This document shows, piece by piece, positions 1-16,959 of a stretch of 35,993 bases of DNA. Position numbers and translations under genes: made by a program. Within the stretch, counting starts at the first letter, position 1, and the number at the start of each line of letters is the position of its first letter. Under the pieces are notes generated by a model. That model saw only the letters and a list, made by a program, of their open reading frames with translations, had not been told where the DNA came from and ran no database searches. This DNA comes from Opitutus sp. GAS368 (GTDB lineage: Bacteria; Verrucomicrobiota; Verrucomicrobiia; Opitutales; Opitutaceae): positions 1 through 35,993 of the forward strand of contig CAMCHO010000026.1 of assembly GCA_945874455.1 (NCBI GenBank), written 5' to 3'.

Positions 1-2966
1 TAGAAATTGAAGACGGTGGGCGAACGCAGAGCGGCTTGGGCGATGTTGCTCAGGGCGCTGTAGATGAGGGTGGTGGAGTTGAGCGTAGAGATCTCGCCCT
101 GCGTGGCGGGCTTGGGGGTGGCGCTGGTGATGGGAGTTCCGTTCACGGCGTGCCGGTAGCCGAGGAAGCGGCCGCTGGTGGACGAGGCGCCGAAGGTGCG
201 GAGGAGGCCCGTGAGGCGGAGGAGGGGCTCTTTGAGTTTACCGTAAGTCGCGTTGCTCGCGACGGCGGGGGAGCGGGCCTCGTAGTCGGTGAGAATGGCG
301 CGGACGACGGCGCTGAGGTCACCGCGGGTGCCGGAACCGTTGTCCATGAATTTCTGGGACACGCGGTAGACGTAGGCGGGGCTGGGATTGCTGGTGACGA
401 GGCGCTGGATGAGGAGCTTCGAGATAAATGGCGGGGTGTTGGCGTGATTGAAGAGCGCATCGAGGGCATCTTTGAGGTCTTTGGTGCCGCCTTGAGCGGC
501 GGGGATGGGCGTCGCGGAGACGGGTGCGATGTTTTTGACGGTATCGTCATGGAACGACGGGAACACTTGCATCGCGGTGTAGTAGTTGGTGCCCGCGGTG
601 CGGAACTGCGTGAGATTGGTCGAGGGATAACCCCAGCCGGTGAAGACCTTGGCCATTTCGGTGATCGTCGTTTGGTCGTAGGTGGGGAGCGGCAAGCCGT
701 CGGGGCCGAGGGCGAGGGTGCCGTCCGGCTGGAGTTGGACGAGACCGATGGTGAACAGCTGCATGACCTCGCGGGCGTAATTTTCGTCGGGGGTGGTGCC
801 GGTGACGGGGTCGGCTTTGGCGTTGCGCAGCGAGCTGAGATACGCGCCCATGAGCGGGCTGAGGGAGACGTTTTCGAGGAGGGTGCGGAAGTTGCCGAAG
901 GCGCCGTTGCCGAGGATATCGTAATAGTTGGCGATCGGTTCGGCATGGCTGTCTTCGCCCAAGGCCACGTCGGAGATGACGAGGATCTGGCTGAGGGCGT
1001 AGGCGACGCGTTGGCGCAGTTGGTCGGGGGCGGTGAGGGAATTCTTGAACCACGCGGACTGGCGATTCTGGAGGTGAGTGGCGTTCCAATTTGTGAAGCT
1101 GCCGCTGCCGCCGTAGGTGGTGCGATCGAATTGGATGGCGGTCCGGTGGGAAGTGAACGGTCGGGCCAATTGCGCCGTAACCCAATTGTCGATACTGCCA
1201 CCGGTGAGACTGTCGATTTCCGCTTTGGTCGGGCCGAAGGTGGCTTGGGTGAGGAGGCGCGCGGCGTCGGTGGCGGTGACGTTGGTGAGGGCGATGGCGG
1301 GAGCGGCGGCAGGCTCGACGAAGGTGCGGGAGCCGGTGCCTTGGATAAACGTGCCCTTCACTTCGCCGGTGGGATATTTGGCGGTGTCGATGCGGACGGA
1401 GATGTTGCCGCTCTTGATCGCGGCGACGAGGTCGGCGACGGAGTAGGGGCCGGTCGGGACGAAGTTCCACTGAGCCCCGTTGACCTGACCTGGGGGTAAA
1501 TTGAACACGTAATCTTCGCTCGCGCCGATGGTGAGGTGGGCGGTGATTTGGGTGGAGCTGAGGTTGGAGAAGGAGACGTTGACTGCGGCGAGCGTGCCGC
1601 TGGAGCTGAGGAGAATCGCCGCGGTGCCCGAGGCCGTGGATCCGCCGACGGCAGTCGTGGTCGGGCGGACCGATGCGAGGTAGAGGGTGGCCGGGGTGTC
1701 GGTGATGGTGACGGTCGCGCTGCTTTGCGCGCCGATGAGGTAGCCGCCGCCGGTGGCGAGGGAGAGGACGACGGTGTCGGTGCCGTCGACTTGGACATCG
1801 GGGTTGGGCGAGAGCGGAATTTTCACGCTGGTGGCGCCGACGGGAATGACGACGGTGCCGAGGAGGACCGGATAGTCGAAGCCGTTGACGGCGGAACCGC
1901 CGACGCCGTAGTTCACCACGAGCGGCAGGCTATTTTCACCGGTGCGTGTGAGGGTGAACTCGCCGGGATTGGTGCCGGATTCATCGCTGGTGGCTTTGGT
2001 GGCAACGATGGTGACGGTGGGCGGATTGGCGGGCGTAAGGTCGTAGGCTTCGATAATGGCGAGGCCGCTGCTGCCTTCGTTGCCGGAAACTTGGATGCCA
2101 TAGTTACCGGGAGCGAGATCGAGGAGGACGGCCGAGTCTTTGCTGCCGGCCGGGAACGTGAAGGCCCCGGCGAGGCCGAAGGCGTTGGTGAGGCCGAGGG
2201 TGTCGGCGGCGCGGGTATCGGAGGGGGTGCCCCAATTGTCGTTGGAGGCGAGGGTCGTGCCGAGGGAGTTGGTGATGCGAATGGTGGGATCGGCGAGGGT
2301 GCCGGTGAGGCCGAAGGCGCCGAGGGCGGGGCCGGCGGTGCGGATGAGAAGTTTGCGGGTGCCGGTGCCGGGCGCGACGACCATGCCGATGATCGGACTG
2401 GACGCGGCGCTGATGGTGAGGCGGGTGGAGGTGTTAAGGAGCTTGGCGCCGGTATTGCCGATCTCGTAGACCTCGGCGAGGGCGACGCCCGTGGACGTGC
2501 CGGTGCCAGCGACCTGGGCGGTGTAGTTGCCGGGGGGGAGCGTCACGATCACGGCGGAGTCACGGCTGGTGGCGGTCAGAGCAAAGGCACCGACGCGGGC
2601 GAAGGCGGTGGAAAGTTCGGCGGCGGGGACGCCGCTGGAACCGAGCGGGGTGCCCCAGTCGTTATTGGTCGCGATGACGGCGTTGGCGCTGTTGAACACG
2701 GTGAGCACCGGGTCGGCGAGGGCCCCGGCGACGCCGAAGCCGGAGAGCGTCGGGCCGACGGCGCGGATGAGGACCGGTTTGTTGGGGCCGGGCCCGATGA
2801 CGAAGCCGAGGGTGAGTACGGAAGGGCCGGTGCCACTCAGGGCGCGGGCGGAGATGTTGGCGAGACGCGGCTCTTGGGGGCGGGCCGTGGGAGCCAAAGC
2901 GGCGAAGGCGGCCATGGCCAAAATGGAGCGGAGCAGCGAGGTGGCGGAAATGAGCGGAGATTTCAT
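1..2966 (-). CDS. Secreted DUF1800 protein with beta repeats, Calx-beta-like and CHRD-like domains (3' end outside window)
   Basis: About 988 codons are open on the minus strand from an ATG at 2966 to the window edge, so the C-terminus is missing. Residues 1-31 form a signal peptide with a cleavage region near ARPQ. Two tandem beta modules follow, at about 32-169 and 170-306; each carries an IRA/IRT-x-GP-x-L motif, a DP, an NDWGTP or NDNWGTP motif and a PGNY motif. Residues about 314-420 resemble a Calx-beta domain (GFDYP, then VTITD). About 426-538 resemble a CHRD domain, ending in YPTGEVKGTF. The DUF1800 domain opens near residue 566 with AARLLTQATFGPT and includes NYYDILG, NYAREVMQLFTIGL and, at the edge, RSPTVFNF, which is typical of the family's C-terminal part. 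DUF1800 genes are common in Verrucomicrobia and Planctomycetes, often beside DUF1501 genes; biochemical function is unknown. The product is probably exported to the periplasm or cell surface. Confidence 0.9.
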   Translation of the reverse strand, partial: MKSPLISATSLLRSILAMAAFAALAPTARPQEPRLANISARALSGTGPSVLTLGFVIGPGPNKPVLIRAVGPTLSGFGVAGALADPVLTVFNSANAVIATNNDWGTPLGSSGVPAAELSTAFARVGAFALTATSRDSAVIVTLPPGNYTAQVAGTGTSTGVALAEVYEIGNTGAKLLNTSTRLTISAASSPIIGMVVAPGTGTRKLLIRTAGPALGAFGLTGTLADPTIRITNSLGTTLASNDNWGTPSDTRAADTLGLTNAFGLAGAFTFPAGSKDSAVLLDLAPGNYGIQVSGNEGSSGLAIIEAYDLTPANPPTVTIVATKATSDESGTNPGEFTLTRTGENSLPLVVNYGVGGSAVNGFDYPVLLGTVVIPVGATSVKIPLSPNPDVQVDGTDTVVLSLATGGGYLIGAQSSATVTITDTPATLYLASVRPTTTAVGGSTASGTAAILLSSSGTLAAVNVSFSNLSSTQITAHLTIGASEDYVFNLPPGQVNGAQWNFVPTGPYSVADLVAAIKSGNISVRIDTAKYPTGEVKGTFIQGTGSRTFVEPAAAPAIALTNVTATDAARLLTQATFGPTKAEIDSLTGGSIDNWVTAQLARPFTSHRTAIQFDRTTYGGSGSFTNWNATHLQNRQSAWFKNSLTAPDQLRQRVAYALSQILVISDVALGEDSHAEPIANYYDILGNGAFGNFRTLLENVSLSPLMGAYLSSLRNAKADPVTGTTPDENYAREVMQLFTIGLVQLQPDGTLALGPDGLPLPTYDQTTITEMAKVFTGWGYPSTNLTQFRTAGTNYYTAMQVFPSFHDDTVKNIAPVSATPIPAAQGGTKDLKDALDALFNHANTPPFISKLLIQRLVTSNPSPAYVYRVSQKFMDNGSGTRGDLSAVVRAILTDYEARSPAVASNATYGKLKEPLLRLTGLLRTFGASSTSGRFLGYRHAVNGTPITSATPKPATQGEISTLNSTTLIYSALSNIAQAALRSPTVFNF

Positions 2967-3263: not shown

Positions 3264-4703
3264 TTAGCGGACGGTGCGCAGCTGCACGCTGTCGACGAGG
3301 CGGTCTTGGGAGACGATGTCGGTGGCGACGATGAGTTTGTCGCCGGGGACGATGCGGCCCTCGCGGCGGAGGAGGGCGATGGCGTTTTCGATCGTGACGT
3401 CGGGCTCGGAGGCGAGCGGCATCAGGACAGGCGCCACACCGCGCAGGAGGCGGAGCTGGCGGAACACCTCCGGTGACGGAGTGAAGGCAATGATCGGGGA
3501 GTGGACTGGGCGCAGCATCGCGAGGCCCTGCGCCATGAAGCCGTGGCGCGTGAACGTGAGGAGCTTTGAGCGCGGGAGCTCGTTGGCGAGGACGACGGCG
3601 GAGTGAAGAACCTTCATCCGTTCGCCGGTGAAGACGGCAGGTGGGCGGGATTCGCCGGACTCTTCCTTTTCAATGCGACGGGCAATTTTATCGAGCATCT
3701 GCACGCACTCGAGCGGGTATTTGCCGATGGTGGTCTCACCGGAGAGCATGACGCAGTCGGCGAGTTCGAAGACGGCGTTGGCAACGTCGGTGATCTCCGC
3801 GCGGGTCGGGACCGGTTGCGAAATCATACTCTCCAACATGTGGGTGGCGACGATGACCGGGCGGCCCTGGGCGAGGCAGGCGCGGACGGCGCGGCGCTGG
3901 ATCACGGGGAGTTCCTCGAACGGGCACTCGATGCCGAGGTCGCCGCGGGCGACCATCAAGGCGTCGCAGGCGGTGACGATGCTGTCGAGGTTATCGATGG
4001 CAGACTGGTCCTCGATCTTGGCGATGATGCGGCAGCGGGATTTTTTCTCGCTGAGAAACGCGCGGAGCACCGCGATATCTTTGGCTTCGCGGACGAAAGA
4101 GAGGGCGATGAAATCGATGCCCTCTTCGAGGCCGACGGTGGTGTCGGCGCGGTCTTTTTCGGTGAAAGAAGGCAGGTTTACCTTCACGCCCGGCAGGTTG
4201 ATGTGCCGTTTGGATTTCAACTCTCCGGGGATGATCACGCGGCAACGGATGCGAGCCTCATCTGTGGCGAGAACTTCGAGCCGGAGGAGGCCATTGTCGA
4301 CGAGGACGGTGTCGCCGACCTTGATGTCGTTGACGAGGTTCGGGTAGTTGACGTCGACGGAGCGGATTTCCTCGCCGCCCTCGATTGCGGGGCTGCTGGC
4401 GCCGGGTTTAACGGTGAAGTCGAAGATCTCGCCGGCTTTGAGCTCGATGGGCACGGTGAGGTCGCCTGTGCGGATTTCGGGGCCCTTGATGTCCATCATG
4501 ATGGCGACGTCGCGGCCGATGCGGGCGCTGACAGCGCGGACGCGGCGGATGACCAGGCGGGTCCAGTCGTGTTTGGCGTGTGCCATGTTGAGGCGGACGA
4601 CGCCAGCACCGGCGCGAAATAATTTCTCGAGCATCGCTTCGCTTTCGGTGGCGGGCCCGAGGGTGACGATGATTTTGGTGCGGCGGATGGAATCGGCGTT
4701 CAT
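3264..4703 (-). CDS. pyk: Pyruvate kinase
   Basis: The 479-residue product matches the usual length of bacterial pyruvate kinase, which transfers phosphate from phosphoenolpyruvate to ADP in the last step of glycolysis. The N-terminus has the family motif KIIVTLGPA (10-18), then RLNMAH (37-42) and MMDIKGPEIRTG (69-80). The catalytic lysine region is IIAKIEDQ (K229, E231), the metal-binding region ARGDLGIE (252-259), and ATHMLESM stands where ATQMLESM is usual. The C-terminal domain is complete. Two positions differ from the muscle-type enzyme: the potassium-site Ser of NFSH is Ala (NMAH), and the Thr of the DTKGPE motif is Ile. The glutamate after KGP, linked to potassium dependence, is kept. 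The gene is cytosolic in function, diverges from the transporter gene at 4932 and lies upstream of the DUF1800 gene. Confidence 0.95.
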   Translation of the reverse strand: MNADSIRRTKIIVTLGPATESEAMLEKLFRAGAGVVRLNMAHAKHDWTRLVIRRVRAVSARIGRDVAIMMDIKGPEIRTGDLTVPIELKAGEIFDFTVKPGASSPAIEGGEEIRSVDVNYPNLVNDIKVGDTVLVDNGLLRLEVLATDEARIRCRVIIPGELKSKRHINLPGVKVNLPSFTEKDRADTTVGLEEGIDFIALSFVREAKDIAVLRAFLSEKKSRCRIIAKIEDQSAIDNLDSIVTACDALMVARGDLGIECPFEELPVIQRRAVRACLAQGRPVIVATHMLESMISQPVPTRAEITDVANAVFELADCVMLSGETTIGKYPLECVQMLDKIARRIEKEESGESRPPAVFTGERMKVLHSAVVLANELPRSKLLTFTRHGFMAQGLAMLRPVHSPIIAFTPSPEVFRQLRLLRGVAPVLMPLASEPDVTIENAIALLRREGRIVPGDKLIVATDIVSQDRLVDSVQLRTVR

Positions 4704-4931
4704 GCGAGGGAGGTGGTGCAGGAAACGGGCTGATCGCGCAAGGGCGAGGGAGAACGCGGTGGGGCGCGGTGAGACGGTCGTGGGGCACCCGAGTGCGACG
4801 AGAAGAATGTCGCTGGTCCGTCGGAATCGGAACCTGCGCGGAGGACGTCAGGCCGGAGCTGCGCCCGAGATTTGCGGACTGGGGTGATTTTCCGTGCAGC
4901 GGATACCGTTTGAGTTACAGCCCCCCACTCC

Positions 4932-6200
4932 GTGACTTCGTCGTCCGCGGCCGTTGGAAAAAAGGAAACAGCGCGTTTGGTCCTGCCGCCCGGGTATGGC
5001 GCGAGGCGTGGGCTGAATTGGAGCGTCGTGGGGTTGCTCTACACGAGCTGCTACATGTGCCGCTACAACATCTCCATCGCGAACAAGGCGATGGCGGATG
5101 AGTTTCATTTCTCGAAGGAGAACATGGGCGATATTCTCGCGGCGTTTTTCTACGCGTATGCGATTGGACACGTGGTGAACGGGCTGCTCACCGACTTGCT
5201 GGGTTGGCAGAAGGCGTTGCTGATCGGCGCGGCGGGCACGGTAATCTGCAATCTCGCGTTCGGCGCGGCGTCGTTCATGGGGATGCTCTGGCTGTTCATC
5301 GTGTTGCGCGGGATCGATGGTTACGCGCAATCGTTTGGGGCGCCGGGATTCATCAAGATCAACGCATCGTGGTTTAGCGCGACGGAGCGCGGCACGTTTG
5401 CGGGCGTGTTCGGTTTCATGATTAACTTTGGGCGGGTGGCGATCAACCAGCTCGGGCCGGCGGGGATCGCGGCGATCGTCGCCGTGGCGCTCGCGATCTG
5501 GGTCAAGGATACGCCGGAGGAGGCGGGCTTTCATGAAGTCTTCAAGGGCGAGTCCGATCACGATGATGTCGTGAAGGCGGATCTCCGCGATGTGTTCGTC
5601 ACGATCGTCGCGAACAAATTCGTCTGGATCATCGCGGGTGCCTACGCTTGCACGGGTGCGGTGCGGCAGACGGTGGACCAGTGGTTTCCGCGTTACATGC
5701 AGGCGGTGCACAAGATCAACCTCGATGAGCCGCTGTTTCTCGTCGTTGTTTTTTTGATACCAGTCGTGGCGTCGGCGGGTTCGTTTATTTCCGGCGTCGT
5801 GTCGGATCACCTGTTTGGCGGGCGGCGCGCGCCGGTGGCTGCGTGGATTTATTGTATCGAGATCGTCACGATTTTGATCGCGTCACGAGTAAGTGGAGCG
5901 ACGGCCATCGCGGTGGCGTTTGTCATGGTGGCTTTCACGGCGAACTCCACGCACTCGCTGCTCGGGCCGGCGGCGGCGATGGACATCGGTGGGCGGAAGG
6001 CGGCGGCGTTTGCCTCGGGGTGTATCCATTCTTTTCAATACCTCGGCGCGGGCTTTGCGATACAGATTCTGGGGCGGCTGCTGGCTAAGACCGACTACAC
6101 TTACTTTTTTTATTTCACGGTGCCGTGGGCGGTGGTGGGGGCGGTGCTGATTTTTAGCATGGCTGGCCAGCGGAAATTGCGAAAGGGGTCGGGGCATTGA
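4932..6200 (+). CDS. MFS organophosphate:phosphate antiporter family transporter (GlpT/UhpT-like), apparently missing part of TM5-TM6
   Basis: The 422-residue hydrophobic protein belongs to the OPA branch of the major facilitator superfamily, which exchanges glycerol-3-phosphate or hexose phosphates for phosphate across the inner membrane. TM1 ends in YMCRYNISIANKAM, whose Arg aligns with substrate-binding R45 of GlpT, and VRQTVDQWFPRYM aligns with the second phosphate-binding Arg in TM7. The helix-end motif DTPEEAGF precedes the central loop. Between the ERG after TM4 and this DTP there are about 40 residues against about 56 in GlpT, so the end of TM5, the periplasmic loop and the start of TM6 seem shortened in frame. 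The start used is GTG at 4932, chosen because the N-terminus then fits the family; there is no clear ribosome-binding site and an internal start is possible. The substrate is not predictable. Confidence 0.85.
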   Translation: MTSSSAAVGKKETARLVLPPGYGARRGLNWSVVGLLYTSCYMCRYNISIANKAMADEFHFSKENMGDILAAFFYAYAIGHVVNGLLTDLLGWQKALLIGAAGTVICNLAFGAASFMGMLWLFIVLRGIDGYAQSFGAPGFIKINASWFSATERGTFAGVFGFMINFGRVAINQLGPAGIAAIVAVALAIWVKDTPEEAGFHEVFKGESDHDDVVKADLRDVFVTIVANKFVWIIAGAYACTGAVRQTVDQWFPRYMQAVHKINLDEPLFLVVVFLIPVVASAGSFISGVVSDHLFGGRRAPVAAWIYCIEIVTILIASRVSGATAIAVAFVMVAFTANSTHSLLGPAAAMDIGGRKAAAFASGCIHSFQYLGAGFAIQILGRLLAKTDYTYFFYFTVPWAVVGAVLIFSMAGQRKLRKGSGH

Positions 6201-6215
6201 CGCGGAATCGTTCCG

Positions 6216-6250
6216 CTGAGTGCTGAGGGTTGAGCGGTGAGCGGTGAGCA
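6216..6250. repeat. Degenerate heptanucleotide tandem repeat (5 units)
   Basis: Five consecutive 7-bp units occur between the convergent transporter and hydrolase genes: CTGAGTG, CTGAGGG, TTGAGCG, GTGAGCG and GTGAGCA (consensus NTGAGNR). The same motif occurs inside the M48 protease gene at 16439-16464, so it is a dispersed short tandem repeat rather than a unique sequence. Confidence 0.75.
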
Positions 6251-6295
6251 CCGGAAAGCGGCCCTCGGCAGCGAGGTGTCTGCAAATCAGAGGTC

Positions 6296-7102
6296 CTAGA
6301 CGTCGTAGAACGGCGTGCCTTCGCCGGGGGCGACGATGGAGAATTCGCAGCTGGTGAGGGTGGCGCGGACGCCGGCGAGGGCCTGTTCGACGGCGGCGGG
6401 AGAATTGCATTCGCTCGAGAGGTGCGTGAGGTAGACACGGCGCCAGCGGGGGCTCGCGATGGCGGCAAGGAGCTCGCGCGTGGCCTCGTTGGAGAGGTGG
6501 CCATGGCGGCCGGAGATGCGCTGCTTGAGCGACCAAGGGCGCTTGGTGTCGGCGGCGAGGAGGTCGGAGCAGTGGTTGGACTCGACGACGACGACGTCGC
6601 ACTCGCGGAGTTGTTCGCGGACGTTTTGCGGGGCGTGGCCGAGGTCAGTGACGTAGGCGAGAGAACGGCGCGGGGAGAGCAAGTCGTCGGCGTGACCGGT
6701 GGTGAAACGGAAGCCGACGGGTTCCTGGGCGTCGTGCGGGACGGCGAAGGTGGTGACCTCGAGGTCGCGGTAGCGGAAGCGCGAGCCGGTTTCGAAGAGC
6801 TGCCAAGCGGGGCGATGGGCGGCGTCGAGTTTGGATTGGACGGCGCGGCTGGTGGCGGGATTGGCGAAGACCTGGATGTGCGGATGCTTTTTCAGACCGT
6901 CGATACCGGCGGCGTGGTCGCTGTGTTCGTGGGTGAGAAAGATGGCGTCGATGCGCGCGAGGGATTCGTCGGCGTCGAGGAGGAGGGCGGAGAGTTTTTT
7001 CGCGGAGAAGCCGGCGTCGACGAGGACGCGCGCGCCCTCGGTGATGAGCAACGCGGCGTTGCCCGAGCTACCGGAACCGAGGATGCGGAAACGCATGGGC
7101 AT
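6296..7102 (-). CDS. Metallo-beta-lactamase-fold hydrolase, WalJ/YycJ-like
   Basis: The 268-residue cytosolic protein has the full metallo-beta-lactamase metal-site set. THEHSDH lies at 57-63, the second-shell histidine is in VPHDAQEP, TDLGH carries the bridging aspartate, and VESNHCSDLL, RHGHLSN and LTHLSSECN follow. The N-terminus RFRILGSGSSGNAALL and the motif order fit the WalJ/YycJ subfamily, whose members have been described as 5'-3' exonucleases or DNA-repair proteins; the substrate of this one is an inference. There are two in-frame ATGs, at 7102 and 7096, and I use the first. A 90-bp hexamer repeat lies directly upstream of the start, so any ribosome-binding site would have to sit between them. 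The gene converges with the transporter gene. Confidence 0.88.
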   Translation of the reverse strand: MPMRFRILGSGSSGNAALLITEGARVLVDAGFSAKKLSALLLDADESLARIDAIFLTHEHSDHAAGIDGLKKHPHIQVFANPATSRAVQSKLDAAHRPAWQLFETGSRFRYRDLEVTTFAVPHDAQEPVGFRFTTGHADDLLSPRRSLAYVTDLGHAPQNVREQLRECDVVVVESNHCSDLLAADTKRPWSLKQRISGRHGHLSNEATRELLAAIASPRWRRVYLTHLSSECNSPAAVEQALAGVRATLTSCEFSIVAPGEGTPFYDV

Positions 7103-7109
7103 GGGTCAG

Positions 7110-7199
7110 AGTGCGAGTGCGAGTGAAAGTGAAAGTGAAAGTGAACGTGCGAGTGAAAGTGAAAGTGAACGTGCGAGTGAACGTGAACGTGAACGTGAA
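7110..7199. repeat. Degenerate hexanucleotide tandem repeat (15 units)
   Basis: Fifteen uninterrupted 6-bp units of the form (A/C)GTG(A/C)(A/G), mainly AGTGAA with CGTGAA and AGTGCG/CGTGCG variants, fill 90 bp. They begin 7 bp upstream of the hydrolase start codon. On the transcribed strand of that gene the tract is pyrimidine-rich. A unit-number change would alter promoter-to-start spacing but not coding phase. Confidence 0.9.
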
Positions 7200-7268
7200 G
7201 GGAGGGGGCGGGGGGCGGGAGGGCCAAACTAAAACGTCGCAACGGCCAAGCGCGCACCTGTCGCGGGG

Positions 7269-7341
7269 GTAGGGACGGCTCTCCGAGCCTGCCGGGATTC
7301 CGAAGGTAGACGCGAGTGGCGGCCGCCTCGCAGCGGCGTCC

Positions 7342-7345
<4 letters not shown>
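7269..7345. repeat. Inverted-repeat element overlapping the fusion gene's stop codon
   Basis: The 9-bp ends GTAGGGACG (7269-7277) and CGTCCCTAC (7337-7345) are perfect inverted repeats. Between them are GC-rich segments that also partly pair, including CTCCGAGCC and GGCCGCCTCGCAGCGG. The layout is that of a small non-autonomous, REP/MITE-like intergenic element. Its right arm contains the TAG (7344-7342, minus strand) that ends the fusion gene. Confidence 0.55.
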
Positions 7346-10695
<3,350 letters not shown>

Positions 10696-10847
10696 GGGCG
10701 GAAACGAAGGCACAAAGTGTTTAACCACGGAGTTCACGGAAGGGCAGGGAAGACGGAAAGGAATTCAATCGCGGTCGATACAGGGATCACGCGGTGCATT
10801 GAATCGAGCCGTGTCTATCGCGAAACCCGTGGTGAAAAAAATGAATT

Positions 10848-11696
10848 TCAGGACTCCTCGGTGCGGACGGCGAGGAGTTCGACGAGCTGGGTGAGGACTC
10901 GGTCGCGATCGCGACCGGAGAGGGACAAGGCGAGCTGGGCGAGGAGCAGGCCATAAGGTGCGCCGATGTCGTAGCGGCGGCCGGCGATGGAAAACGCCAG
11001 ATAACGACGGCGGGCGGCCAGCGTGTGGAGCGCCGGCGAGAGACCGAGCGGTTGGTCGGGGGCGGCGGCGTGGTGTTCGTCGAGGATCGCGAACAGGTCT
11101 GGGCCGAGTACGTGGAGGCCGAAGAAGCAGAGGTAGAAGCCCGCGCGCAAACCGGGGACGATGAGGTGTTGTTCGGCGACGGTGGGCGTCGGTTTCTCCA
11201 GGACGGTGTCGATTTGGTAGAGCGGGCGGGCGCCGCCGATGAGTTTACCGCCGATGGCACCGTAGGAGGTGAGGTGGCTCTCGCGCGTGGGCTGCACGGC
11301 GGACACGGAGGTGTTTTCGGTGTTGGCGACCGCGATGAGTTGGCGGGCGCAACTGGTGGTGCCGTGGGCGACGTGGAGGTGATCACCGACGAGGTGAAGG
11401 AACGGTTGGTCGCCCACGAAGTCGCGGCCGCAGAGAATGGCGTGGCCGTAGCCGCGCGCGGTGGGTTGGGCGATGAAACGCACTAGTGAGCGGAGGGCGC
11501 CGCAGGCCTCGGCGTAGGCGGTTTCGTCACCGGGACAGACGATGACGCAGAATTCCTCGATGCCGGCGCCGGCGGCCTCCTCGAGGACGATCTCGAGGGC
11601 GGATTTCGTCTCGCCGCGTTGATCAATCAGCGTTTGGAGCGGGAGCGTGCGCTGGCGGGGGTTGGCGGCGGTGACGAGGGCTTTGCGGATAGGCAT
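10848..11696 (-). CDS. GalU-like sugar-phosphate nucleotidyltransferase
   Basis: The 282-residue protein has a Rossmann-type nucleotidyltransferase fold. KALVTAANPRQRTLPLQTL (5-23) stands at the nucleotide loop, EAAGAGIEEFCVIV (40-53) follows, then YGHAILCGRDF, LVGDHLHV with the metal-binding Asp, VLEKPTP, and RRYDIGAPYGLLLA, which matches GalU's GKRYDIG. The classical GalU loop (GLGTRFLP and PKEML) is replaced, so it is a distinct subfamily or has altered chemistry. I recall related loops in planctomycete proteins but cannot confirm this here. It is probably co-transcribed with the kinase/pyrophosphorylase fusion downstream. The intervening 152 bp contain imperfect CACGGA repeats. The likely role is nucleotide-sugar formation in the cytosol; the sugar is unknown. 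Confidence 0.78.
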   Translation of the reverse strand: MPIRKALVTAANPRQRTLPLQTLIDQRGETKSALEIVLEEAAGAGIEEFCVIVCPGDETAYAEACGALRSLVRFIAQPTARGYGHAILCGRDFVGDQPFLHLVGDHLHVAHGTTSCARQLIAVANTENTSVSAVQPTRESHLTSYGAIGGKLIGGARPLYQIDTVLEKPTPTVAEQHLIVPGLRAGFYLCFFGLHVLGPDLFAILDEHHAAAPDQPLGLSPALHTLAARRRYLAFSIAGRRYDIGAPYGLLLAQLALSLSGRDRDRVLTQLVELLAVRTEES

Positions 11697-11932
11697 GGGA
11701 GGCGCGGGGGCGGAAACGAAAGGCGGAGTCAGAAGCGCCGCGCCGGTTGATTCAATCGGAAAGGCGGCTCAACCCCATAACCACCGAACGACCTCTGCGC
11801 CGAACGACCACGGCGATTGACGGAGGAAACTATTGTGCTACTAGTTGGCCCTGCATGCCGTCAAAATCCGCCAATCTGAAACGCTCCGCACGCTCTCCGC
11901 GTGCGAGGGCACCGCGTGCATTGAGCGGCACC

Positions 11933-12352
11933 GTGTTCATCACGCGGCAAGTCCATTTCAACTCGGCGCACCGGCTGCACAATCCGACCAAGAGCCAAGC
12001 GTGGAATACGCGGCAATATGGCCTGTGCACCAATCCGCACTGGCACGGACATAACTATGTGCTCGAGGTGACCCTGCGCGGACAGCCCGATCCGGTGACC
12101 GGCTACATCGTGGACTTGGGTGAGTTGAAGCGGATTTTGCACGTGGCCGTGGTCGACAAGTGCGACCATCGGAATCTGAACACGGATGTGGATTTTCTCC
12201 GGGACGTGATTCCGTCGACGGAAAACCTCGTGATCGCGTTTTGGCACGAAATCGAACCGCGCATTAAGGCCGGGAAATTGCATTGCGTGCGCCTGTACGA
12301 GACGCCCCGGAACTTTGCCGAATTTTTCGGCCCGGAGGCCCGCCCCGCCTGA
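11933..12352 (+). CDS. 6-pyruvoyl-tetrahydropterin synthase (animal-type, PTPS-II motif)
   Basis: The 139-residue protein converts dihydroneopterin triphosphate to 6-pyruvoyl-tetrahydropterin in this family; the related QueD makes carboxytetrahydropterin. Zinc ligands are H13, H38 and H40, the catalytic triad C32, D78 and H79, and the pterin-binding glutamate E123. All sit exactly ten positions before their rat PTPS counterparts (H23, H48, H50, C42, D88, H89, E133). The cysteine spacing is C-x5-HGH, as in tetrahydrobiopterin enzymes, not C-x3-HGH as in QueD. Further similarity includes [24 protein letters not shown] and VRLYET. I choose GTG at 11933 because it starts where the family does; an in-frame ATG at 11855 would add 26 basic, low-complexity residues. 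folE2 follows 80 bp later. Confidence 0.88.
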
Positions 12353-12432
12353 CAATTTTAGCCGCTAAACTTGGCTACGCGCGGTTGTTATCGTCACCAA
12401 CCGGCGGGCCGTTTGCTCCCACGAAAAACGAC

Positions 12433-13407
12433 ATGAAAAAGAAACCGATGTATCTGCACGAGACCGCTGGCGGTGTGCCGCCGCTCGTGAACCGCCGCCA
12501 CGACGCGACGTTTAAATCCGATGCGGCTTATCGTGCCACGTTGCCCGACATGATGGAGGCGGTGAACGCGGCGGAAGGCGCGCGCGTGCCGATCCAGCAG
12601 GTGGGCTGCGCGAATTTCCGGCTGCCGCTGAAATTCTGCACGGCGAACGGAAAACTCCATACGCTGGAGACGAGCGTAACGGGCACGGTGTCGCTGCAGG
12701 CGGGCCTGAAGGGAATCAATATGGGGCGCATCATGCGTTCGTTTTATGAACATGAGGACGAGGTGTTCACGTTCGAAGTGCTGCGGAAGTTGTTGCTGAA
12801 GTATCAACGCAAGATCGATTCGTTCAACGCGCGCATCCGTTTGGCTTTTTCCTATCCGATGCTGCAACCCAGCCTGCGGAGTGGATTGGCGGGCTGGCAG
12901 TACTATCGCGTCGCGTTCGAGGCCACGATGGATGGCGACGGGAAATTCCGCCGCGTGATCGAGTTTGATTTTGTCTATTCGTCCACGTGTCCGTGCAGCG
13001 CGGAGCTGGCGGAGCACGCGCGGCAGACGCGCGGCGTGTATGCCACGCCGCATGCCCAACGATCGAAGGCGCGCGTGCGGGTGGAACTCGCGGCGGGCCG
13101 CAGTGTGACGATCGAGGATTTGCAGCGACACTGCGCGAATGCGCTCAAGACGGAGACGCAGGTGATGGTGAAACGCGAAGACGAGCAGGCGTTCGCCGAG
13201 CTGAACGGCGCCAACATCAAGTTCGTCGAGGACGCGGCCCGGCTGCTTTACCGCGAATTGGCGGGCGACAAACGCATCGCCGATTTTCAGGTGGCGTGCT
13301 CGCACCTCGAGTCGCTGCACTCGCACGATGCGGTGAGTGTGATTGTGAAAGGCGTGAACGGCGGGATGACGGCCGACTTCATGGATTTTGGATCGTTGGT
13401 GTGCTGA
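12433..13407 (+). CDS. folE2: GTP cyclohydrolase FolE2 (type IB)
   Basis: The 324-residue protein belongs to the COG1469 family, which opens the imidazole ring of GTP to give dihydroneopterin triphosphate, first step to folate, queuosine and biopterin. [16 protein letters not shown] (184-199) holds the metal and catalytic cysteines, C186 and C188. [28 protein letters not shown] (258-272) and [13 protein letters not shown] (291-303) are the other signature blocks. The reading frame stays open upstream, but the ATG at 12433 starts [10 protein letters not shown] and is the natural start; no clear Shine-Dalgarno sequence precedes it. The type IB enzyme is metal-promiscuous and zinc-independent in other bacteria. 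The gene lies between the pyruvoyl-tetrahydropterin synthase and short-chain dehydrogenase genes on the same strand. Confidence 0.93.
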
Positions 13408-13422
13408 AGGCGCGGCAGCAGG

Positions 13423-13446
13423 CGCACGGACACACGGACACACGGA
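13423..13446. repeat. Octanucleotide tandem repeat (3 units) in the folE2-SDR spacer
   Basis: Three 8-bp units, CGCACGGA then CACACGGA twice, lie in the 47-bp gap. The last GGA merges into GGAAGAA, the only Shine-Dalgarno-like sequence before the dehydrogenase start. Confidence 0.6.
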
Positions 13447-13454
13447 AGAACTTT

Positions 13455-14177
13455 ATGAAAACACCTGTCGTTCTGATTACCGGCGCGTCGCAAGGAATTG
13501 GCGAGGCGATCGCCAAGGTGTTTGCGAAGGAAGTGCGCGGGGTGCGGCTCGCGCTGGTGGCGCGGAATGAGACGAAGCTGCAGGCGGTGGCGCGGGCGTG
13601 CGGGAAAGTGGCGAGCGGCGGGGCGGCGGCGGTGGCGGTTTTCGGGTGCGATGTGAGCGACGAAGCGGCGGTCGCGACGCTGCGCGCGGCGGTGACGAAG
13701 CGGTTCGGGACGGTGGACGTGTTGATCAACAATGCGGGGGCTTTTACGATGGCGCCGTTTCTGGAGAGCAGCGTGGCTGATTTCGACCGGATGGTGGCGG
13801 TGAATCTGCGGAGCGCGTTTTTGGTCACGCGAGCGTTTGTGCCCGCGATGGTGAAACGGAAGAGCGGCGACGTGTTCTTCATGAGCTCGATCGCAGGCCT
13901 CGAGGCGTATCCGCTCAGCGCGGCGTATTGCGCGGCAAAGTTTGGGGTGACCGGGCTGGCGAAAGTTTTGCGTGCGGAGACCCAAGACAAGGGGGTGCGC
14001 GTGTGTTGCGTGCACCCGGGCGCGACGTGGTCGCCGTCGTGGAGCGCGAGCGGCGTGAAGCCCGAGCGAATCATGCCGGCGGCGGATGTGGCGCGGGCGT
14101 TTTTGGATGTTTATCGGCTGACTCGAAATACCGTCGTCGAAGAGATCGTGCTGCGACCGCAGCTGGGTGATCTCTAG
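13455..14177 (+). CDS. Short-chain dehydrogenase/reductase, candidate pterin (sepiapterin-type) reductase
   Basis: The 240-residue classical SDR has the NAD(P)-binding motif TGASQGIG (9-16), CDVSD (65-69), NNAG (92-95) and the catalytic set S145, Y158, K162 (YCAAK). The Arg after the second beta strand (VARNETKL) suggests preference for NADPH. In the family such enzymes reduce or oxidise carbonyl and hydroxyl groups. Its position after PTPS and FolE2 makes 6-pyruvoyl-tetrahydropterin, as used by sepiapterin reductase, a plausible substrate. That is inferred from context, because SDR specificity cannot be read from the motifs. Fatty-acid or sugar reductase roles remain possible. The start is ATG at 13455, MKTPVVLITG; the open frame upstream reads through folE2 out of phase and is not coding. 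Confidence 0.85.
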   Translation: MKTPVVLITGASQGIGEAIAKVFAKEVRGVRLALVARNETKLQAVARACGKVASGGAAAVAVFGCDVSDEAAVATLRAAVTKRFGTVDVLINNAGAFTMAPFLESSVADFDRMVAVNLRSAFLVTRAFVPAMVKRKSGDVFFMSSIAGLEAYPLSAAYCAAKFGVTGLAKVLRAETQDKGVRVCCVHPGATWSPSWSASGVKPERIMPAADVARAFLDVYRLTRNTVVEEIVLRPQLGDL

Positions 14178-14618: not shown

Positions 14619-16625
14619 TTAACGCGGGCTGCGGAATGAACTCGGGGCGATGGTCAGCGGGGGCATCGGCACGTCGAGGGACGCGGCGACGGCGCGGAGG
14701 AGCTCGGCTTCGGCGGTGAGGATTTGGCCATCGGCCCCGGCGATGTGAGCGCAGGCGAGGATCGTGCGTTGGCGGATGGCGAGGCTGGCGGTGGCGAGCG
14801 TGTCGAGGGCAGGGTCGAGCGGGCCCACGTCGCAGTCGATGGGATCACGCAGCGTGAGCTGGTGTGCGATGAGTTTGATGTGCGCGGCACCGATGGCGAA
14901 GGCTTCGGAGGCAGAGAGGGTACGGTTGTCGGAGGTGTGAGCCATCGCAGAAAGTACGATGGAAATTTCGTCGACGACGGCGTTGAAGGAATAGATCTGC
15001 ACGTCGGCATCGCTGGGCGTGCGGCCAAGGGCGAGCGTGCGGATGAGAAGTTTTTGCAACGCGAACTCAAAGGCGGTCACGCGGCCGTCGACGTGGACGA
15101 GTTCGTCGAGTGTAGCGAGGAATGGGTCTAGGGCGGTGGGTGGAAGCAGGCGAAGCGCGGGGAGCGCGAGCTGCAGGAGTGGGAGTTTGTGCGCGAGGCC
15201 GAGCGCAGCCAAGGACGGTGCGAGCGCGTCGAGGGTGCGCAGGGCGTCGCCCCCGGAGCGGCTCGCCACGAGGCTGCGTTGGCGGGCGCGCGTCGCGGGG
15301 TCCTCATCGAGCAGGAGTCCGTAGAGGAGGATTTGGGCTTCGGCGGGGGTTTGGGTGGCGGCGCGGAGGCGGGCCGGGGTGGAGTCGAGCAGGAGTCGAG
15401 CGTTGGAGATTTGGTCGGGTGTGAGGGTGCCGACGGCGGCGATGGCGGCGGCGGGTGTAGCGGGCAGGTGGGCGAGGTGAGAGGTGCGCGAGGATTGCGC
15501 GGGGGCGAGACCGGCGGTGACGAAGGACTCGCGGGCGACGTCGACGACGTCGGGCGGGGCAATCATTTGGCCGTTGAATTGGGGATCGATGGCGCGGATG
15601 CGTTCGTCGAGGGGAGGGTGGGTGGCCCAGAGGCCGCCGAAGTGGGAGCGGAAGCCTTGCGCGAAAAAGAAGTGGCCGATGGCACCGCTCTGGTTGGACT
15701 GGATCGAGGAGCCAAGAGCGAAGCCGCCGATTTTTTTCAATGCGCCGCTGAGGCCACCGGGGTTGCGCGTGAATTGGACGGCGGAGGCGTCGGCGAGGTA
15801 TTCGCGTTGTCGTGACACGGCGGCCTGAATGAGACGGCCGAAGAAGTAGCCGACGTAGCCGAGGACGAGGAGGGCGAGACCGACGAACCCGATCGCGATG
15901 AGCATGCCGCCGGAATTCTTGCCCTCGCGGTCGCGCGAGCCGGCGAGACTTTGGAAGCGGATGGTCCACAGGATGCCGCGGCCGGCGAGACCGAGGACGA
16001 GAATACCGAAGACCAGCGCGGTGAGGCGCATGTTGAGGCGCATGTCGCCGTTGAGAATGTGGCTGAACTCATGGCCGACGACGCCTTGAAGTTCGTCGCG
16101 GGAGAGTTTTTCGAGGGTACCGCGGGTGACGGCGACGACGGCGTCGCTGGTGTTGAGGCCGGCGGCGAATGCGTTGATGGCGGGCTCCTCGTCCATGATG
16201 TAGACGGCGGGCATGGGGACGCCAGACGCGATGGCCATCTCTTCGACGACGTTGAGGAGGCGGCGTTCGAGGGTGTCGGTGGTGTGGGGATCGACGCGGC
16301 GACCTCCGACGCTCTCGGCCACGGCGGAGCCGCCGGCGGAGAACTCGTTCCATTTATAGAGCGAGGCGAGGCCGACGACGGCGAGGGTGAGGGAAGAGAC
16401 GCCGAGGAAAAGCTGGGGCTGCCACCAGGAAGGCGGCTCTGAGCGGTGAGCCGAGAGTTGAGGGCTGCGGCCGGAGCGGCGCGGGTTGTCGTCGTGCGTC
16501 TGGCGAAGGGCGAAGACGGCCGCGCCGTAGCCGCCCAGCACGGTGCCGAGGACGGCGAGTGCGAAGAGCGCGATGAGGCGGGACGTGCTCTTTTTGGCGC
16601 GGGCTTGGGCTTCGAAGAAATCCAT
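14619..16625 (-). CDS. Membrane M48 (HtpX-like) zinc protease with C-terminal TerB-like domain
   Basis: The 668-residue protein starts at the ATG at 16625 (MDFFEAQARAKKS); upstream codons look noncoding. Transmembrane segments lie near 18-40, 71-90, 196-224 and 240-265. The zinc motif is HEFSH at 185-189, and E275 in REYLADASAV is the third ligand, as in Ste24/HtpX enzymes that cut membrane proteins. THPPLDERIRAIDP ends the protease domain near 360. The long C-terminal part ends in AHIAGADGQILTAEAELL, which resembles TerB-type helical domains; this assignment is tentative. The N-terminal loop, about 50-65, is encoded by a heptamer repeat. LemA lies upstream on the same strand, and LemA/M48 pairs are common. 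HtpX itself is about 290 residues, so this is a much larger relative. Confidence 0.87.
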   Translation of the reverse strand: MDFFEAQARAKKSTSRLIALFALAVLGTVLGGYGAAVFALRQTHDDNPRRSGRSPQLSAHRSEPPSWWQPQLFLGVSSLTLAVVGLASLYKWNEFSAGGSAVAESVGGRRVDPHTTDTLERRLLNVVEEMAIASGVPMPAVYIMDEEPAINAFAAGLNTSDAVVAVTRGTLEKLSRDELQGVVGHEFSHILNGDMRLNMRLTALVFGILVLGLAGRGILWTIRFQSLAGSRDREGKNSGGMLIAIGFVGLALLVLGYVGYFFGRLIQAAVSRQREYLADASAVQFTRNPGGLSGALKKIGGFALGSSIQSNQSGAIGHFFFAQGFRSHFGGLWATHPPLDERIRAIDPQFNGQMIAPPDVVDVARESFVTAGLAPAQSSRTSHLAHLPATPAAAIAAVGTLTPDQISNARLLLDSTPARLRAATQTPAEAQILLYGLLLDEDPATRARQRSLVASRSGGDALRTLDALAPSLAALGLAHKLPLLQLALPALRLLPPTALDPFLATLDELVHVDGRVTAFEFALQKLLIRTLALGRTPSDADVQIYSFNAVVDEISIVLSAMAHTSDNRTLSASEAFAIGAAHIKLIAHQLTLRDPIDCDVGPLDPALDTLATASLAIRQRTILACAHIAGADGQILTAEAELLRAVAASLDVPMPPLTIAPSSFRSPR
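16439..16464. repeat. Heptanucleotide repeat inside the M48 protease gene
   Basis: The units CTGAGCG and GTGAGCC, a 5-bp interruption (GAGAG), and TTGAGGG match the 7-bp repeat at 6216-6250. Here they are translated, antisense, into the linker PQLSAHRSE between the first two membrane segments. Confidence 0.5.
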
Positions 16626-16959
16626 CAGGTGAAGTCGGTCACATTCGGGGCGCGAAGCGCAGGCCAAAAGACCTGAAGGCCGGGGAGTGTCCGCAGTGGG
16701 AGAAGGGGCGCTTAAAGGAAGGCGCCGCTATCGGCGTCCGGCCGTCCAACGAGCGGAGCGGTTTTTTTCTGTGCTGGTTCATCGTCCCAGGTTCTGCGGT
16801 CGGCATCGCGTTTGGATTTCTCAGCCGGACTGAACTGAAGGCTGTTGGGAATGACGCTATCGCGATAACCTCAGCGTTCTCGCGTCCGATCATAGAGCAT
16901 GCGTTTAAACGCGGGGCAGAGGAGCTTCACGGCGCGCGACCTCGAGGATTTTTGGTCGG
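16626..16959. other. Intergenic region between lemA and the M48 protease gene
   Basis: These 334 bp show no gene with family support. The base composition is less GC-biased than in the neighbours. I see no intrinsic terminator after lemA, so the two genes could be co-transcribed despite the gap. A short hairpin, GGCGCC-GCTATC-GGCGTC, is present near 16721-16738. Confidence 0.4.

Follow-up and report, generated by a model that had tools for sequence, protein, structure and literature searches.

The function of a COG0720 protein is usually read from the spacing of its cysteine. In the extracts of PMC5041015 drawn on here, CxxxxxHGH is the signature of PTPS-II, a type of 6-pyruvoyltetrahydropterin synthase (PTPS), and PTPS-I/III hybrids, which serve queuosine and folate, give a precedent for one COG0720 enzyme working in two pathways. 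The closest described system is that of Chlorobium tepidum, with a PTPS-II, a sepiapterin reductase (PDB 2bd0) and L-threo-biopterin as product (PMC5041015, PMC5683033). Genes predicted for the same three reaction types lie side by side in Opitutus sp. GAS368 (assembly GCA_945874455.1), on contig CAMCHO010000026.1, whose positions 1 to 35,993 on the forward strand form the window, that is the whole stretch of DNA analysed. We find that this operon of PTPS, FolE2 and a short-chain dehydrogenase/reductase (SDR) is conserved among relatives, that it would cover every step from GTP to a tetrahydrobiopterin-type pterin, and that its PTPS is the only visible candidate for the queuosine step in this genome (G000) and several related ones. 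The excerpted text of PMC5445326 places FolE2 beside PTPS-IV, and GTP cyclohydrolase I with nudix proteins loosely beside PTPS-II; among the literature matches listed there was no biopterin operon of Opitutaceae, no PTPS-II/FolE2/SDR operon and no PTPS-I/II.

The genes run in the order PTPS-FolE2-SDR on the plus strand, with intergenic gaps of 80 bp and 47 bp:

11855..12352 (alternative GTG start 11933), plus strand: PTPS, a PTPS-II-type 6-pyruvoyltetrahydropterin synthase by PDB and profile match, tree and predicted fold
12433..13407, plus strand: FolE2, predicted GTP cyclohydrolase I type IB (GTP to dihydroneopterin triphosphate), from NF010200 and adjacency to PTPS
13455..14177, plus strand: SDR of sepiapterin-reductase type, with 2bd0 as best match by sequence, profile and fold

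The original prediction, made from the sequence without database searches, had described the co-directional trio and its gaps correctly but named FolE2 first. It had also begun the PTPS at GTG 11933, which is possible, but ATG 11855 appears the likelier start because relatives' PTPS carry a basic N-terminal extension similar to the one this start gives the protein (165 amino acids).

From gene identities, conservation of the operon and the presence or absence of pathway genes we infer the following scheme. FolE2 would convert GTP to 7,8-dihydroneopterin triphosphate, from which PTPS would form 6-pyruvoyl-tetrahydropterin, and the SDR would reduce the side chain with NADPH. FolE2 and PTPS would probably also act as a trunk for other pterin pathways in this genome, FolE2 feeding folate and PTPS supplying 6-carboxytetrahydropterin to QueE and QueC for queuosine. 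Homology gives good support to a biopterin-type route, and it is at this level that the tetrahydrobiopterin-like route from GTP that had been proposed for the operon stands; we consider it probable that the operon makes a biopterin-type product. That one PTPS serves both biopterin and queuosine is, to our judgement, about evenly balanced, and we hold the scheme as a whole, a shared trunk with a biopterin-type branch and a queuosine branch, at no better and no worse than an even chance.

Identity of the three proteins

The PTPS motif, CTNPHWHGH, is C-x5-HGH as originally proposed and fits the PTPS-II signature. Its cysteine spacing departs from the CxxxHGH of QueD (PTPS-I), and the ExxHGH of PTPS-III is absent, with proline at the glutamate position. 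In the operon-PTPS family the cysteine and HGH are invariant in 15/15 aligned rows, as are H13, C32, H38, H40, D78, H79 and E123; these seven residues are likewise invariant across 24 rows of PTPS and QueD, in which the cysteines share a column once gaps are introduced. Residues 1..134 of the predicted PTPS model align to 11..144 of rat PTPS 1gtq (134 aligned), which bears out the constant offset of ten to the rat residues.

Rat PTPS 1b66 is the best PDB match (E 2.5e-33), followed by Pseudomonas aeruginosa 2oba (1.1e-9) and E. coli QueD (1.3e-7), and a profile search gave 6.9e-44 for rat PTPS against 2.3e-11 for E. coli QueD. The predicted model (pLDDT 88) superposes with Z 18.4 on human and 18.3 on rat PTPS (rmsd 3.0, 134 aligned), and with Z 16.8 on E. 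coli QueD (rmsd 2.2, 118 aligned). In a tree of 34 rows the operon-PTPS family groups with rat, human and C. elegans PTPS with support of 99/97, leaving the QueD rows and those with the motif CRFPHGH outside; Chlorobium and cyanobacterial PTPS were not among the rows, the E. coli and P. aeruginosa rows were partial, and the program flagged long branches in the rows outside the group. Motif, tree, profile and fold thus agree with the earlier assignment to an animal-type PTPS rather than QueD, and the tree, a check that had been suggested with it, did not group the protein with QueD.

Compared with the animal enzymes (rat 1b66/1gtq, human 3i2b), the protein shares the active-site spacing, CxxxxxHGH and the fold (Z 18.3-18.4 over 134 residues) at 35-38% identity, and differs in belonging to a bacterial operon, in a genome that has queuosine genes and in which no separate QueD was found. 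With QueD it shares the fold and the types of zinc and catalytic residues, in a genome that has queC, queE and queF, whereas its cysteine lies two residues further from HGH, it branches outside QueD and it is not beside queC or queE. Searches of plasmid, phage and viral collections returned only distant PTPS matches, mostly annotated as QueD or unannotated, and the plasmid collection gave no SDR match at 1e-40.

FolE2 scores 289.2 bits against NCBIfam NF010200 (cut-off 215). For the SDR, the C. tepidum sepiapterin reductase 2bd0 is the nearest solved structure over the full length, and it comes first by sequence (E 3.1e-38; next 1.1e-33), by profile (3.1e-57; next 3.1e-49) and by predicted fold (pLDDT 91; Z 33.8, rmsd 1.7, 233 aligned; next entry Z 31.6). 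The SDR of the operon has the catalytic Ser145, Tyr158 and Lys162 as well as Trp196 and a C-terminal Asp239, and the tyrosine, lysine, Trp196 and C-terminal aspartate are found in the C. tepidum enzyme too. Tyr158, Lys162 and Trp196 recur in 70/72 relatives' alignments and the aspartate in 67/72, the remaining two and five not covering the site; in this count the serine column is 144, one off Ser145 of 2bd0. A 22-row SDR alignment has Ser145, Tyr158, Lys162 and Trp196 invariant. The originally proposed role of the SDR as a sepiapterin-type reductase is supported at the level of homology, and the corresponding activity is predicted from it.

Conservation of the operon

Two surveys bear on how stable the grouping is. 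The first covered 132 genomes of the order, with PTPS matches at E 0.001 in 19, of which 15 are strong and 4 weak; the 15, hereafter the operon genomes, comprise nine of the ten drawn from the same family as G000, five of family f24 and one of f21. FolE2 adjoins PTPS in all 15 (upstream of it in G095), and the SDR sits beside the pair in 12, the exceptions being G102, G024 and G095. The second took the best 80 of 513 relatives as named loci, two of the 80 coming from one metagenome-assembled genome (MAG). FolE2 follows PTPS in 80/80 (a contig end truncates four of these loci) and 72/80 include the SDR, so that the grouping is more than chance. This neighbourhood survey, which had been proposed with the original prediction, shows a deeply conserved trio.

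The variants are few. About 3 kb separates the pair from the SDR in L107, L109 and L164, where the intervening genes are, by eye, on the opposite strand and unrelated, and in L161 the SDR lies upstream on the other strand. Among the eight named loci without an SDR the contig ends soon after the pair in four (L138, L156, L170, L177) and leaves room in the other four (L117, L120, L146, L179). In L120, which has no SDR, FolE2 is followed by genes (3863-8550) that by eye resemble ketoacyl synthases. No fourth downstream gene is common to most loci. The closest named relatives are MAGs labelled Opitutae, Opitutus and Opitutaceae.

Set beside Chlorobium, the genes here form a tight operon with FolE2 (the Chlorobium gene arrangement lay outside the comparison) and there is no glycosyltransferase in the operon, to which that statement is confined since a pteridine glycosyltransferase was not searched for genome-wide. 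The apparent sharing of PTPS with queuosine is a further difference.

The same genome holds a second copy of the pair on contig C70 (L003 6411-7937), with a PTPS-II 73% identical and a FolE2 81% identical to those of the operon and no SDR. The reading frame of its FolE2 is interrupted by a TAA after codon 274, ahead of a segment in which Cys, His and Glu are near-invariant. Among 77 full-length FolE2 matches no other has a stop, and this one may be a sequencing error. The tetranucleotide make-up of C70 fits an origin in the same genome (correlation 0.949), weak evidence because other genomes of the family reach 0.91.

Queuosine genes and the search for a QueD

The original prediction had observed that queC, queE and queF are not nearby, which is true of the neighbourhood, but all three are present elsewhere in the genome. 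queE follows queC, cut by the contig end, on contig C256, and the operon is on contig 26 (C26, the window), so PTPS is not clustered with them. The only COG0720 proteins of G000 are the operon PTPS and its near-copy. The separation from queuosine that had been implied therefore finds no support: G000 has queC, queE and queF, and the genome search found no separate queD, one of three outcomes named beforehand as telling against that prediction.

G000 is not alone in this. No other COG0720 type was found in seven of the 15 operon genomes (G000, G035, G050, G066, G072, G102, G126), two of which, G035 and G126, are each a single contig with a stated completeness of 100%; the six besides G000 have QueC and QueF in 6/6 and QueE in 5/6. 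In G102 the PTPS-FolE2 pair stands without an SDR in an 18-kb stretch, and queC and queE are present with queD absent. More widely, QueC occurs in 15/15 operon genomes, and in searches of 16 genomes (these 15 and G091) QueF was found in 16/16 and QueE in 14/16, with none in G126 or G091 and a distant match (1.7e-13) in G095. Since the operon type is the sole COG0720 type in 7/15 operon genomes, all with queC and queF, elimination makes it a candidate supplier for queuosine.

Across the order QueC and COG0720 travel together. Counting QueC as strong below E 1e-50, which leaves out 24 weaker ones among the 93 genomes matched at E up to 0.001, strong QueC is found in 69 of the 132 genomes, COG0720 in 70 and both in 68; COG0720 is thus present in 68/69 genomes with strong QueC and in 2/63 of the others (G053, G055), counts that come from related and not independent genomes. 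G091, alone among the ten family members in lacking the operon PTPS, has neither a COG0720 protein nor strong QueC but keeps QueF. It is somewhat short of an even bet, in our view, that the operon PTPS represents a PTPS-I/II not described before, a CxxxxxHGH synthase that would have displaced QueD in much of the family and would serve both pathways, FolE2 being the one GTP cyclohydrolase behind all pterins. Relative to the PTPS-I/III hybrids the proposed duties would be those of PTPS-I and PTPS-II, and the motif has the PTPS-II cysteine only.

Another view of these data is that the PTPS works solely for biopterin and that 6-carboxytetrahydropterin for queuosine comes from an enzyme unrecognisable as COG0720. 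The PTPS-II motif, the animal-type clade and the SDR partner are all in keeping with it, and 8/15 operon genomes encode a further COG0720 protein, with a CxxxHGH motif, which is what one would expect if PTPS-II were no substitute for QueD. These are of the QueD type in G080 and G095 and of the CRFPHGH/CRYPHGH type in G013, G114, G024, G042, G057 and G119. An unknown enzyme would then have to be present in seven genomes with QueC and QueF (six with QueE), and no candidate stands out: among the genes conserved beside queC in 12 loci no QueD substitute was recognised (by eye, with no family search). The coupling of QueC with COG0720 across the order and the occurrence of PTPS-FolE2 with no adjacent SDR in G102, G024, G095 and four named loci with room also count against a role in biopterin alone, which we regard as rather unlikely.

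The CRFPHGH/CRYPHGH proteins form a separate COG0720 branch (L060-L065) in genomes with queC. In G096 and G106 the sole COG0720 protein scores like this branch and may be their QueD.

Folate, hydroxylases and the use of the pterin

FolE1 was not found in any of the 15 operon genomes searched, so FolE2 is likely the folate entry enzyme too (the search did not extend to FolE2 copies beyond the operon). FolB, dihydroneopterin aldolase, had no match in 5/16 genomes searched (G000, G066, G080, G095, G126), though FolE2 is present in them, and for this reason the operon PTPS may have a minor role in folate. Taken further, the PTPS might replace FolB altogether, as PTPS-III does in other organisms, an idea that draws on the absence of FolB in those five genomes, including G000 and the complete G126, and on G095, where the PTPS motif CNNEQWHGH satisfies both signatures. 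We think it very improbable, given that the ExxHGH glutamate is absent from the window PTPS and from 14/15 family rows, G095 being the exception, and that FolB is kept in 10/15 operon genomes. The G095 protein (L038 8650-9123), whose genome has no FolB match and a separate QueD, is in its own right a candidate PTPS-II/III hybrid.

Several observations weigh against the scheme of a shared trunk with biopterin and queuosine branches. The search for aromatic amino-acid hydroxylases that had been proposed earlier found no PF00351 protein in G000, which speaks against a simple hydroxylase-cofactor story; the family is present in 3/15 operon genomes and absent from 12/15. Likeness to rat PTPS is weak functional evidence because, as the cited part of PMC5041015 warns, of the Synechococcus paralogs the one that more closely resembles rat PTPS does not serve biopterin. 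The SDR belongs to a large family, and of the two residues on which substrate binding by the C. tepidum enzyme is reported to depend, Trp196 and Phe99 (PMC7520308, in extract), the second is not conserved: position 99 is Met here and, in the 72 relatives, Gly in 31, Met in 20, Ala in 12 and another residue in 9. The SDR is consequently no strict Chlorobium-type member and the stereochemistry of the product is not predictable. On the queuosine side, the PTPS is without the cysteine spacing of QueD, eight operon genomes have a CxxxHGH protein as well, and G126 has QueC with no match to the QueE query. G014 combines strong QueC with the absence of COG0720, and G031, whose intermediate QueC match (2.1e-20) lies outside the strong set and which also has no COG0720, would be a second exception. 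Finally, G000 (5.07 Mb) is an assembly of 333 contigs at 95.5% completeness, so a missing queD in this genome alone would prove little. As to the cysteine, work by Phillips in 2012 reportedly found that QueD tolerates its being shifted.

Much of this can also be read as supply for queuosine and folate only, the rat-like protein being the clade's QueD, fed by FolE2, and the SDR unrelated to biopterin. The Synechococcus paralog, the presence of queuosine genes with no other QueD, the finding that G091 has neither PTPS-II nor strong QueC, and the lack of a PF00351 hydroxylase in G000 and 12/15 operon genomes would all follow naturally. We nevertheless judge it unlikely, as it leaves unaccounted for an SDR retained in 72/80 named loci and beside the pair in 12/15 genomes of the order, the closeness of that SDR to sepiapterin reductase by three measures, and a PTPS cysteine spacing that is that of PTPS-II.

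Biopterin occurs as glycosides in Chlorobium and cyanobacteria (PMC3546692, PMC5683033, each in extract), and the excerpted PMC3546692 calls the function of these glycosides unknown and links pterins to UV-A phototaxis.

An M48 peptidase gene (14619-16667, minus strand) is the next long gene downstream of the SDR. On the other side, divergent to the operon, 7342-11696 (minus) encodes a 1131-amino-acid protein with a UDP-glucose-pyrophosphorylase-like part and a nucleotidyltransferase, between the operon and a gene for an MBL-fold protein (6296-7102, minus). The latter and pyruvate kinase (3264-4703, minus) lie near the operon in many relatives, the MBL type in 45/80 named loci, many of which are short. 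Rfam gave no match in the operon stretch, a search of 18 sources at gathering thresholds yielding two tRNAs elsewhere in the window, and promoter and terminator scans showed no excess over shuffles.

If a PTPS-II is indeed the only QueD candidate in these genomes, the cysteine motif would not separate the two pathways, and a gap in the reconstruction of queuosine synthesis would be explained. Opitutaceae relatives would also join the likely makers of biopterin, 12/15 of those examined being without the hydroxylase family that uses biopterin elsewhere.

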